Part shown: positions 579-40,265 of the stretch, piece after piece
How the letters are laid out: every line of letters begins with the position of its first letter
How positions within the stretch are numbered: position 1 is the first letter of the stretch
DNA from: Pseudoalteromonas flavipulchra NCIMB 2033 = ATCC BAA-314
GTDB lineage: Bacteria; Pseudomonadota; Gammaproteobacteria; Enterobacterales; Alteromonadaceae
Assembly: GCA_000814665.1 (NCBI GenBank)
Contig: JWIH01000020.1
Coordinates: 434,001 to 498,000 of the forward strand
Reading direction: 5' to 3'
DNA length: 64,000 nt
The notes under the pieces: model-generated
Database searches by the model: none
Told to the model about the DNA's origin: nothing
What the model saw: the letters and a program-made list of their open reading frames with translations, nothing else
Translations under genes and position numbers: made by a program

Positions 579-2747
579 ATGAGCAAGTATGTCACTCATT
601 CAGGCTTCCAAATTGCGACTCCACTGGCGCAGTTTGTTGAGCAATCTTTACTTCCCGGTACGGGGATCGCGGTCAATCAATTTTGGCAAGGCGTAGTGGA
701 TATTTTTTCGGAACTTGGGAAGCAAAACCAAGCGTTACTCAACAAACGCGATACCCTGCAACAGCAAATTGACGATTACCACCTCTCTCATCCTGATTGG
801 CAATCTGCAGAATATCGGACATTTCTTGAATCTATTGGTTATTTGCAGCCTGAGCCCGAAGATTTTGCCATCGAAACCGAGCATGTGGAGCCTGAAATTG
901 CGAGCGCAGCCGGTCCTCAGTTAGTGGTGCCTGTCAGTAACGCAAGGTTTGCGCTCAATGCGGCTAATGCGCGTTGGGGCTCCTTGTATGACGCGCTCTA
1001 TGGAACGGATGTTCTTGGCGAAGAGGATGGTGCTGAGCGTACTCAAGCCTATAATCCGAATCGTGGGTTTAAAGTCATGGCTTATGCTAGGCAATTCCTC
1101 GATAAAGCGCTGCCGTTGGCAGAAGGTTCTCACATAGAAAGTACGAACTACGCGATTCTAGACGGCAATTTAGTGATTACACTCAACGACAGCACCCAAG
1201 TTGCACTGCAAAAGCCTGATCAGCTAGTGGGTTATCAGGGGGAGGCACAAAATCCAAGCGCGGTATTGTTGCGCCACCATGATCTGCATATTGAGATCCA
1301 AATTGATCCACACCATCCGATAGGACAGGCAGACAAAGCCGGGATCAAAGATGTCGTCCTTGAGGCTGCACTTACGACAATCATGGATTGTGAAGACTCA
1401 GTTGCGGCGGTGGATGCACAAGACAAAGTATTGGTATACCAAAATTGGTTAGGCTTGATGAAAGGGAGCTTGAGTGAGACTTTCGAAAAGTCAGGTCAAT
1501 CGCTGACTCGGACGCTAAATGCCGACCGAAGTTACGTAGATACACAAGGCCAGCGTATGACACTAAAAGGTCGCTCTATGATGTTTGTGCGCAATGTTGG
1601 CCACCTAATGACAACGCCAGCGATACTGGATGCAGAAGGAAACGAGCAGTTCGAAGGGATTTTAGATGCCATCATGACAAGCACGGCTGCGCTGCATGAT
1701 TTACAAGGCAATAGTCCGTTTAAAAACTCGACGGCAGCAAGTATCAATATCGTGAAGCCAAAGATGCACGGGCCTGAAGAAGTCGCTTTCACTGATACCC
1801 TATTTAGCCGAGTTGAAGCGCTGCTCTCGCTACCCAAAAATACCATTAAAATGGGGATTATGGATGAAGAGCGCCGTACTTCGGTAAACTTAAAAGCGTG
1901 TATTGCTGCTGCTAAGCAGCGTGTAGTATTTATCAATACGGGCTTTTTGGATAGAACAGGCGATGAAATTCATACCTCAATGCTGGCGGGCCCTGTATTG
2001 CCCAAAGTGGCAATTAAAGGACAATCTTGGATAGCGGCCTATGAAGATCAAAACGTGGATATTGGCCTTAAAACCGGTTTTAGGAAAAAGGCACAAATAG
2101 GCAAAGGAATGTGGCCAATGCCAGATAAAATGGCGCTGATGATGGAGCAAAAGCAAGGCCATCCTGAGTCCGGTGCTAATACTGCATGGGTGCCCTCTCC
2201 TACTGCAGCAACGCTCCATGCGATGCACTATCACTATGTGGATGTGTTTGCACGTCAACTTGAGATAAAAACACGTCAGCAAGCATCGCTCGATAACTTA
2301 CTCACGCCCCCGCTGATGTTAGAAAACGATTTGTCTGCGGAGGATATTCAAGCCGAATTAGACAATAATGCGCAGGGCATTTTGGGCTACGTGGTGCGCT
2401 GGGTAGACCAAGGCGTAGGTTGCTCAAAAGTGCCTGATATCAATCACGTTGGATTAATGGAAGACAGAGCAACGCTTAGGATCTCAAGCCAGCATATCGC
2501 TAACTGGTTATATCATGGCATTTGTAGCGAAGAGCAAGTGGAAAAAACTTTTAGGCGCATGGCGGCTGTAGTAGATGGTCAAAACGAAGGTGACAGCCTC
2601 TACCAACCAATGCTCAATGACCATAAACCGCTTAGTGAAAACCTCGCCTATAAAGCGGCGTTATCTTTGGTATTTGAAGGCCGAGTACAACCCAATGGTT
2701 ACACCGAGCCGCTACTTCACGCCTATCGACAAGCCTATAAGCAGTAG
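579..2747 (+). CDS. glcB: Malate synthase G
   Basis: Malate synthase G condenses glyoxylate with acetyl-CoA to give malate in the cytoplasm, completing the glyoxylate shunt. From the ATG at 579 the protein is 722 residues, the usual length of isoform G (about 723). Key residues sit where known: E272 in [11 protein letters not shown], catalytic R338 in [11 protein letters not shown], the Mg-binding pair E430 (IMDEERRTS) and D458 (FLDRTGDE), and the catalytic base near D629 (MEDRATLR). The reading frame is open upstream to 498, but the extra 27 residues are not family-like and an AAGGACT site precedes 579. It is divergent from aceA, so isoform G rather than isoform A partners the lyase here. 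A strong terminator follows. Confidence 0.95.
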
Positions 2748-13188: not shown

Positions 13189-13497
13189 ATGAACTTTCTA
13201 AAAGATATTCCAGCTGATGTAACCGAAGAAATTTTTGAAACGGTGCTGTCTCATCCAAATATTCGTATTGAACGGATAGTATCAAACGGTCATACCTCTC
13301 CAAGCTCTGGATATTACGACCAAGACGAAAACGAATGGGTACTGGTATTAAAGGGCTGTGGTGAGTTGACTTTTGATGATGGTAAAATAGTAACCTTAAA
13401 GGCGGGTGATAGTCTTAATATTCCCGCACATCAAAAGCATAAAGTAAGTTATACAGACACTTCTGAGCCAACTATATGGCTCGCAATTTTTTATTAA
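13189..13497 (+). CDS. Cupin-domain protein
   Basis: This 102-residue single-domain cupin shows the first motif region GHTSPSSGYYDQDENEWVLV and the second AGDSLNIPAHQKHKV, with the histidines expected to bind metal. Proteins of this size and pattern are widespread and mostly uncharacterised, and may be small dioxygenases or sugar-binding proteins. The ATG at 13189 is preferred over an in-frame TTG at 13165. Its stop codon is only one base before a copy of the dispersed intergenic repeat. Confidence 0.8.
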   Translation: MNFLKDIPADVTEEIFETVLSHPNIRIERIVSNGHTSPSSGYYDQDENEWVLVLKGCGELTFDDGKIVTLKAGDSLNIPAHQKHKVSYTDTSEPTIWLAIFY

Positions 13498-13498
13498 C

Positions 13499-13737
13499 TA
13501 ACCTGAGGTTTGGATAAGTAATGTTCCAACTCATTGTTGCTAAAGTACAACTTAGTTTTTTCCTTGTCTAGCCAGAGAGTTTTAGGGAAAACACCGCGTC
13601 CTGCTCTCGCTAAGGTACCTACATCCTGTAGGCAAGGCGAATTTACGCACCAATAGCTGGCTATTGGAAGTGAATTCAACGCAGTTAGCGCTAAAACTAG
13701 CTGCTAGAAAGGCATTAATTATCCACAGCTCAGGTTA
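13499..13737 (+). repeat. Dispersed intergenic repeat, copy A (239 bp)
   Basis: This copy begins TAACCTGAGGTTTGGATAA and ends with its near-inverse TTATCCACAGCTCAGGTTA, which are 19-bp terminal inverted repeats with two mismatches. Inside is the palindrome CCAATAGC-TG-GCTATTGG. It matches copy B (32143-32340) almost base for base, except for an extra block of about 41 bp around 13600-13642 containing the small hairpin CTACA-TCC-TGTAG. It has no coding capacity and looks like a MITE-type element. Confidence 0.85.
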
Positions 13738-13763
13738 ACTACCAAAGTTCAACTGAGCGAAGC

Positions 13764-31785: not shown

Positions 31786-32145
31786 ATGTATATTGGCAAG
31801 CTGTCAAAGCAAACTGGGCTGTCAGTAAAGACCATTCGCTTTTATGAAGAGAAAGGGCTTATCCCTACCCCGGAGCGTGTTGGTAAATATCGCGTCTATT
31901 CTCAAGTAGATGTCGATCTGCTGTTATTAATAAAAGAAGCAAAATCGCTCGGCGTGTCGATTAAGCAATTACAGCAGGTGATTGAAATTAAAGGGCGGCA
32001 AGTCAACTGGGTAGAAATCAACACATTTTTAGTTGAACTCAAAGCATCCTGCATAGAGCAAGTTGCGCAGCTTCAGCAAAAAATACAGCGTATTGAACAT
32101 TGCATCGCATCGCTTGATGAATGTCCACAGATAAAACTATCCTAA
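31786..32145 (+). CDS. MerR-family transcriptional regulator
   Basis: A 119-residue regulator: a winged HTH (IGKLSKQTGLSVKTIRFYEEKGLI, VGKYRVYSQVDVDLLLLIKEAKSLGVSIKQL, about residues 3-60), then a dimerisation coiled coil (VELKASCIEQVAQLQQKIQRIEHC). Three cysteines occur late (about C86, C105 and C112), but not in the arrangement of CueR or ZntR, so a metal effector is not assured. The stop codon TAA is the first three bases of a dispersed repeat copy, so the repeat supplied the 3' end of the gene. It probably controls the divergent GST gene. Confidence 0.85.
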   Translation: MYIGKLSKQTGLSVKTIRFYEEKGLIPTPERVGKYRVYSQVDVDLLLLIKEAKSLGVSIKQLQQVIEIKGRQVNWVEINTFLVELKASCIEQVAQLQQKIQRIEHCIASLDECPQIKLS

Positions 32146-32340
32146 CCTGAGGTTTGGATAAGAAATGTTCCAACTCATTGTTGCTAAAGCACAACTTAGT
32201 TTTTTCCTTGTCTAGCCAGCAAGATTTAGGGAAAACAAGGCGAATTTACGCACCAATAGCTGGCTATTGGAAGTGAATTCAACGCAGTTAGCGCTAAAAC
32301 TGGCTGCTAGAAAGGCATTAATTATCCGCAGCTCAGGTTA
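32143..32340 (+). repeat. Dispersed intergenic repeat, copy B (198 bp)
   Basis: It begins TAACCTGAGGTTTGGATAA and ends TTATCCGCAGCTCAGGTTA, which are imperfect 19-bp terminal inverted repeats. It is nearly identical to copy A but lacks a block of about 41 bp. The central palindrome CCAATAGC-TG-GCTATTGG is identical. The first three bases serve as the stop codon of the MerR gene. Confidence 0.87.
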
Positions 32341-32425
32341 TCCTAGTCTCAGGTAGAGTAACTTGACTCTCCCGTTAAGGGGAGGCAGTACACTCGTTTC
32401 TCAGTCATGTGATAAGGAAACGACG

Positions 32426-39754: not shown

Positions 39755-40265
39755 TGAGCTCTCTTTCAATAAATTTAAACGTAAATTCATCAATAAGTTA
39801 CCATTCCTTTTCGGGGTATACAATGCGTGCTTTGTGCAGAGAAAAGCAAGCTGGGGTTGATTGTCGTCATCTGACTTTATTTTGCGTATTCTGATTGCAT
39901 TAAATAAGGTTAATTATTTTATGGACGAGGAATCTACAGTGCTCACTTTAAACCTTGCATCGCAAATTCTTCAATTGAGATTACCTAACCTTAACTCGGA
40001 ATAAGAAGTTAGTTAAGCTACTAAAATACCTAAGTTCAAAAGCGTAATATCACTCTAGCCAGAAGTTACTTCGTAATACAAGGCAAATTTGTGCGTCAAT
40101 AGCTAGCCTATTGCAAGCAAATTTAATGTAGTAGTAAGGGATAACAGCTGCTAGAGAACAAGTTGTTATCCCGAGTTCAGGTTACCTATATTGTTTTTAT
40201 TGTGTTTGCCCTAATTAAGAGAGTGGGATTACAAATTAATTGCAAAGGACTAGGAAGAAAAAACG
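39755..40265. other. Long intergenic stretch with repeat copy C
   Basis: This 511-bp gap holds repeat copy C (39986-40184) and, just before it, a short ORF from 39921 (27 codons, MDEESTVLTLNLASQILQLR...) whose last codons and stop lie inside the repeat. A GTG at 39939 preceded by GAGGA is an alternative start. The ORF may be a remnant cut by the repeat. Nothing else was seen. Confidence 0.5.
39986..40184 (+). repeat. Dispersed intergenic repeat, diverged copy C (199 bp)
   Basis: This copy begins TAACCTTAACTCGGAATAA and ends TTATCCCGAGTTCAGGTTA, so the ends are again inverted (4 mismatches in about 24 bp when extended). It shares with copies A and B the core around CAATAGCT-GCCTATTG and the segment ACAAGGC-AATTT, but is otherwise diverged. 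The base-pairing is kept although the sequence changed, which suggests selection for a folded shape or an older insertion. Confidence 0.7.

Follow-up and report, generated by a model that had tools for sequence, protein, structure and literature searches.

Three related repeats lie in the same orientation within a 64,000-nucleotide stretch of the genome of Pseudoalteromonas flavipulchra (the whole stretch is called the window below), and they raise the question of whether such a sequence is a mobile element, a structural RNA, or both. A first-pass annotation, made from the sequence alone, had offered either a non-autonomous, miniature inverted-repeat (MITE-like) element or a structural RNA repeat. 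We find that all three repeats are full-length copies within a large MITE family, and that the two readings are compatible rather than exclusive. All three copies were re-located in the window sequence at the positions and in the orientation annotated (Table 1); the palindromic core is present in each, and the extra block of about 41 bp reported for copy A has that measured length. The repeat was also said to encode no protein, and none of 50 copies in this genome lies within an open reading frame of 100 or more amino acids.

Table 1. Coordinates of the three copies in the 64-kb window and loci at which each kind of end surrounds the core. R1 is the core model described in the text; element lengths exclude the duplicated target.
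Feature	Window position or locus	Strand	Remarks
Copy A, long form of the MITE	13501..13735	+	235 bp
Copy A left target duplication	13495..13500	+	TAACTA
Copy A right target duplication	13736..13741	+	TAACTA
Copy A extra block	13593..13633	+	41 bp, hairpin CCTACATCCTGTAGG
Copy A structured core	13617..13699	+	R1 match, 62.4 bits
Copy B, short form of the MITE	32145..32338	+	194 bp
Copy B left target duplication	32138..32144	+	TATCCTA, 7 bp
Copy B right target duplication	32339..32345	+	TATCCTA
Copy B structured core	32220..32302	+	R1 match, 89.7 bits
Copy C, divergent-subfamily member	39988..40182	+	195 bp; ends closest to ACCTGAACTCGGGATAA
Copy C left target duplication	39982..39987	+	TACCTA
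Copy C right target duplication	40183..40188	+	TACCTA
Copy C structured core	40063..40146	+	R1 match, 69.5 bits
ACCTGA-like ends	L222, L243, L244		
ATACC-type ends	L233, L248, L250, L367, L371, L372, L374		
AGGGYRCCTCYATTAATT ends	L368, L369		
TAGGGTCTGTTGATCTTTG ends	L241		one locus
TAGTGGGCCATGCG ends	L373		one locus
GAAGCTCTGATTAATTC ends	L370		one locus

A search of the host genome (5.45 Mb in 25 contigs) with copy B gave at least 41 matches at E ≤ 5.1e-7, a repetition that exceeds chance. With copy B itself excluded and two matches to a single copy counted once, these represent at least 39 other elements; since scoring covered 40 of the 87 candidates, the figures are lower bounds. The host genome contains no fewer than 51 full-length copies, and pooling these 51 with copies from relatives and named records gave a set of 124 distinct full-length elements. 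Their lengths span 187–243 bp and fall into a short form of about 194 bp and a long form of about 235–243 bp, most long copies carrying an extra block of about 47 bp. Copy C belongs to a divergent subfamily with seven full-length members. The end motif TAACCTGARNTNNGGRTAA, allowing at most two mismatches, occurs 84 times on each strand, and the reversed control occurs 6 and 2 times. Across 60 genomes the MITE is carried by 25. Spread by phages or plasmids was considered and rejected: eight plasmid records match, all from Pseudoalteromonas and six of them at least 680 kb in size; the phage sequences searched for the element gave no match, and the exact core pattern is absent from viral contigs.

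Exact flanking repeats of 6 or 7 bp surround 94 of the 124 copies, counted over the host genome and relatives: 87 have 6 bp and 7 have 7 bp, and a further two show 5 bp. The remaining 28 lack an exact repeat of four or more bases, and among them are copies whose end was misplaced by the script or whose repeats contain one to two mismatches. The target consensus is TANNTA, with TATTTA (24), TACTTA (14) and TAAATA (14) among the 87. Five of the 87 start with bases other than TA, as in TGATTA, and are nonetheless duplicated in full, which assigns the outer TA to the target. In the TAACCT...AGGTTA ends originally proposed, the outer TA...TA is thus not part of the element, which proper runs from ACCTGA to TCAGGT.

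Empty sites in relatives were obtained for two of the three window copies. In the relative G028, about 95% identical here, the targets of copies A and B are uninterrupted and base-exact, with a single TAACTA at the first site and a single TATCCTA at the second. A second relative, G014, also lacks copy A, at a site that is not clean; it carries copy B at the same place, there as the long form, and shares its private bases. At the copy C locus both relatives have larger indels, and no clean empty site was obtained. The extra block thus varies in presence at a single locus between G014 and the host genome, and a second MITE family, described below, likewise has forms with and without it at the same junction. 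The block may be a mobile unit in its own right; exchange between copies accounts equally well for its distribution. Among 42 host-genome copies with a called ORF on both sides, the neighbors are convergent in 18 cases, tandem in 19 and divergent in 5 by crude ORF calls. Copy B also touches a coding sequence: its first base completes the TAA stop (window 32143–32145) of the upstream ORF 31786–32145, and the empty site of G028 has TAG at this stop, leaving the predicted protein length unchanged. Copy number, inverted repeats, target duplications, the empty sites of copies A and B, and matching ends on IS982 elements together give the non-autonomous, MITE-like reading good support; the case that its proposers had named against it, three copies only and no size-matched empty sites in relatives, did not arise.

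The helper for this MITE is likely an IS982-family transposase. IS982 elements with ACCTGA ends lie within exact 6-bp repeats in G003 (TATTTA), twice in G032 (TAATTA and TATGTA) and in G040 (TAATTA). A third G032 element, at L185, is flanked by the 7-bp repeat TAAATAA, and the element at L189 has a target repeat with one mismatch. In G028 the flanks are unequal because the right end of the IS982 element abuts a MITE end. This element (L207, 1096–2098) is frameshifted, adjoins a MITE 5' end and looks as if it had inserted into a MITE. The other loci among the 31 scanned showed no ACCTGA-ended IS982 pair, several being fragments at contig edges. The IS982 model, with a cut-off of 130 bits, gives 283.5 bits to the G032 transposase and 263.6 bits to that of G040. 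A comparison of the terminal 17 bases reveals that the IS end of G040 is identical to a MITE end of the same genome (17/17) and that the IS end of G028 matches the 3' end of copy B at 16 of 17; the remaining pairings of IS and MITE ends agree at 10 to 17 of 17 bases.

The IS982-type transposase domain PF13612 occurs in 15 of the 60 genomes, in 10 of 25 that bear the MITE versus 5 of 35 that do not, and from these counts the helper seems to come and go. A PF13612 search of the host genome itself gave no match. Both this negative result and the occurrence of the domain in only 10 of the 25 carriers weigh against our proposal, in which an IS982 transposase would move the MITE in trans, as do the unequal flanks in G028 and the mismatch at L189. 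No pair of ends around a transposase was found in the host genome at 12 sites extended to about 5 kb, these being the apparently unpaired ones among roughly 100 of 168 end matches; several of the extended matches turned out to be additional copies of the MITE, some 210–250 bp long. Two other candidate partners were rejected. The single PF01609 transposase match belongs to an element with other ends, which we take to be IS1182-like. Beside it, on the minus strand near the left end of L119, lies an open frame that we read, presumptively, as a REP-associated tyrosine transposase. The ISNCY group, part of which is credited with 6–7 bp duplications, gave one weak match (NF033593), and this led to the IS982 element of G003.

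Each window copy is predicted to fold over most of its length. The fold check suggested in the annotation was run against 200 shuffles and gave z-scores of −5.3 for copy B, −5.1 for A and −3.5 for C, with −4.3 for the minus strand of copy B. The predicted core comprises 84 nt and consists of an outer stem, an internal loop AAGGC/AACGCA, an inner stem and a cap hairpin. Among 17 elements with less than 88% mutual identity, both partners have changed in 27 of 50 pairs, compared with a mean of 11.2 in shuffles (none of 500 as high) and at most 12 in slid controls. On the given strand, the stems of 99 elements (53 pairs, chosen with G-U forbidden) contain 186 G-T against 50 A-C cells, or 31 against 9 columns. 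Rare variants are free of this bias (25 versus 20 types). Private changes are rarer in stems than in loops (0.71% versus 1.48%), and those within stems number 20 G-T to 9 A-C (p 0.06).

These patterns indicate that the fold is kept in the lineages that spread. Perfect core arms of 17–19 bp occur in 4 of the 124 copies, the other 120 having at most 9 bp, and we read the four as cases in which one arm was copied onto the other during replication, so that the hairpin forms. Arm copying alone could create some covariation. Of the structural-RNA alternative in the first-pass annotation, the compensatory conservation of the fold is thus borne out, and action in RNA would be a further, inferential step.

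On sequence and predicted pairing, the same fold is shown to recur far beyond this family, inside elements with unrelated ends. A second MITE family of Pseudoalteromonas, bounded by ATACCAATT...AATTGGTAT and thus presumably dependent on a different transposase, resembles the present one in its homologous core and in the optional block at the same junction. In this family and its relatives in G003 and G017, the order is outer stem, AAGGC, inner hairpin, AACGC, outer stem, and the stem sequences differ from those of the present MITE. Over 24 cores with three types of ends, 18 of 25 pairs have changed on both sides; the loop or otherwise unpaired bases AAGG and AAC hardly vary from family to family, whereas the stems do. 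Copies of the present MITE lie inside second-family hairpins at a TATTTA site at L009, L025 and L174, in two genomes.

A model of these 24 cores, one of them from another genus, was designated R1. Scanned with R1, the window returns exactly copies A, B and C (E 1.3e-11 to 6.2e-18), the training set having included near relatives of B and C. At E ≤ 1e-4, R1 has matches in 117 of the 394 genomes sampled from the order (32 of 114 genera) and in 55 of the 369 sampled from the class (45 of 272 genera); the two samples overlap partly, and at most 11–12 candidates were scored per genome. The order search, less the host-genome locus L223, supplied 30 matches in 29 loci; in their alignment, which was fitted to R1, 95.4% of cells are paired versus 71.3% when shuffled, and the covariation score is 0.633 versus 0.166 shuffled and at most 0.133 slid. 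An exact-pattern scan includes, among the matches listed, Shewanella, Colwellia, Pseudocolwellia, Catenovulum, Litorilituus, Thalassotalea and Pseudoalteromonas.

By eye, 25 of the 29 loci have ACCTGA-like ends and 4 lack them. Inverted flanks were computed for 16 matches, namely the 4 non-ACCTGA loci, 4 others of the same set and 8 loci from the class search. About six kinds of ends surround the core, three of them at one locus each (Table 1), and the second match of L238 yielded no inverted flanks. Since R1 excludes the ends, inverted ends constitute independent support for its matches.

Taken as a whole, we consider it probable that the repeat is an IS982-mobilized MITE with a folded core, for which action in RNA is our best guess. 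A MITE devoid of its own gene would be acted upon at its ACCTGA... ends by an IS982-family transposase supplied from elsewhere, and would insert at TANNTA sites between genes, duplicating 6 and sometimes 7 bp. Transcription of a neighboring gene would read through the element, the core hairpin would form in the RNA, and this hairpin might alter the processing or stability of the neighboring transcript, as reported for ERIC. Such an effect could help the element persist, whichever transposase moves it. The RNA step on its own we advance tentatively, at rather less than even confidence, on the precedent of ERIC, whose orientation-dependent effect on the stability of neighboring mRNA is reported in PMC2229807 and PMC10969869.

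The core might instead act as DNA, through an extruded hairpin (a cruciform or lagging-strand fold) needed for efficient transposition or replication. The four perfect-arm copies, if products of templated copying, imply a hairpin in DNA, and the excess of G-T is compatible with single-stranded DNA as well. The occurrence of the core under some six kinds of ends, hence presumably with different transposases, speaks against such a role, as does the content of the IS982 elements, which on reading, rather than by R1 scan, carry a transposase gene and not the core; we regard a DNA role as somewhat unlikely. A core without function would be a palindrome passed on by inheritance, with replication-linked copying holding its arms alike, and would have spread through descent and recombination among MITEs. 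Such a core would account for the arm-copied copies, for the exchange of the 41–47 bp block between forms and families, and for the lack of G-T bias in rare variants. It is harder to reconcile with AAGG and AAC staying near-fixed across families despite stem change, and with the preference of common differences for G-T rather than A-C, which is not expected if arms are copied symmetrically. On balance we judge it unlikely. The conserved single-strand fold would also suit a free-standing structural RNA gene or a site like the attC of integrons, and the outer stem often ends in AAC/GTT, the motif of attC R boxes. Target duplications and empty sites refute either as the whole explanation, which is barely credible. 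Moreover, AAC/GTT is not kept, the first pair of the triplet being U-A in 7 of 29, and no Rfam 15 family reaches its gathering score in the window. In 19 relative loci, too, none reaches it over the element, the sole match being to an unrelated riboswitch, and four more loci yielded sub-threshold matches only.

The relation to ERIC requires separate comment. ERIC was first described in 1990–91 and has the ends TATACCC...GGGTATA, which we saw in L381. Like the present element, ERIC (IRU, RU-1) of enterobacteria is an intergenic MITE, folds from end to end and has an internal loop AAGGC/AACGCA with the same pairing, a feature noted here and not a published ERIC criterion; it differs in its length of 127 bp, its ends and duplication, and its longer inner hairpin. 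Among nine ERIC copies fetched, AAGGC and AACGC are both exact in five, and in the six foldable copies the loop is predicted to pair as ..(.. and ..)... at the position seen in the core. Several core carriers also possess ERIC-like ATACC ends. Membership of the present element in the ERIC/IRU family is nevertheless very unlikely. Its ACCTGA...TCAGGT ends and 6-bp duplications are not of ERIC type, the two ERIC loci scored with R1 are misaligned and reach at most 10.3 bits, and a model of the nine ERIC copies (R2) recovers nothing at E values as high as 10, either in the window or in 34 loci. Both models thus reject membership, and the shared loop is left as a lead to a possible common descent of the ERIC loop and the core.

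Bacterial MITEs are usually regarded as unrelated short derivatives of separate IS elements. The AAGGC/AACGCA core may, in contrast, be an independent nucleic-acid module, older than its carriers and gained by several unrelated ends, a proposal that we find possible though short of probable. If so, gammaproteobacterial transposon ends, perhaps those of ERIC among them, acquired this core for the protection or regulation that it affords to its holder's transcripts (or DNA), and the interior of such MITEs would be shared functional cargo and not inert filler. The MITE is ordinary in kind; what lifts the finding is a core shared by differently ended elements, which may link ERIC to a much wider set. 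The two loop strands, five to six bases each and mutable independently of the ends, offer a concrete target for the question of what such repeats do.

A MITE driven by IS982 already has a published precedent in MITECca01 of Cardinium cOegib, about 240 bp long and derived from the IS982-family ISCca4 (PMC9769881). As described there, MITECca01 shares IS982-family inverted repeats, high copy number and the absence of a transposase gene; its host belongs to another phylum, and its parent IS is intact in the same genome, whereas none was detected here. The passages compared mention neither a conserved folded core nor a target duplication (PMC9769881). The Correia/NEMIS elements of Neisseria, likewise compared by description, have other ends and hosts but also exist as long and short MITE forms, with transcripts reported to form hairpins (PMC2229807). 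Our literature searches returned nothing on the present MITE family or on a core common to differently ended MITEs.

Several individual loci merit mention. At L222 a c-di-GMP-I riboswitch (2157–2241, minus strand) lies near a core-bearing element of another genus. At L208 (about 1390–1415) an IS982 end lies within the left end of a second-family MITE, adjoining TAACTA. Near-perfect palindromes composed of two element ends only are found at L110 (385–403, TAACCTGAGGCTCAGGTTA) and L107 (130–148, TAACCTGAGATCAGGTTA), and are possibly remnants of deletion or excision. Finally, the copy at L117 (280–354), about 75 bp long, is little more than the two ends of the copy-C subfamily.
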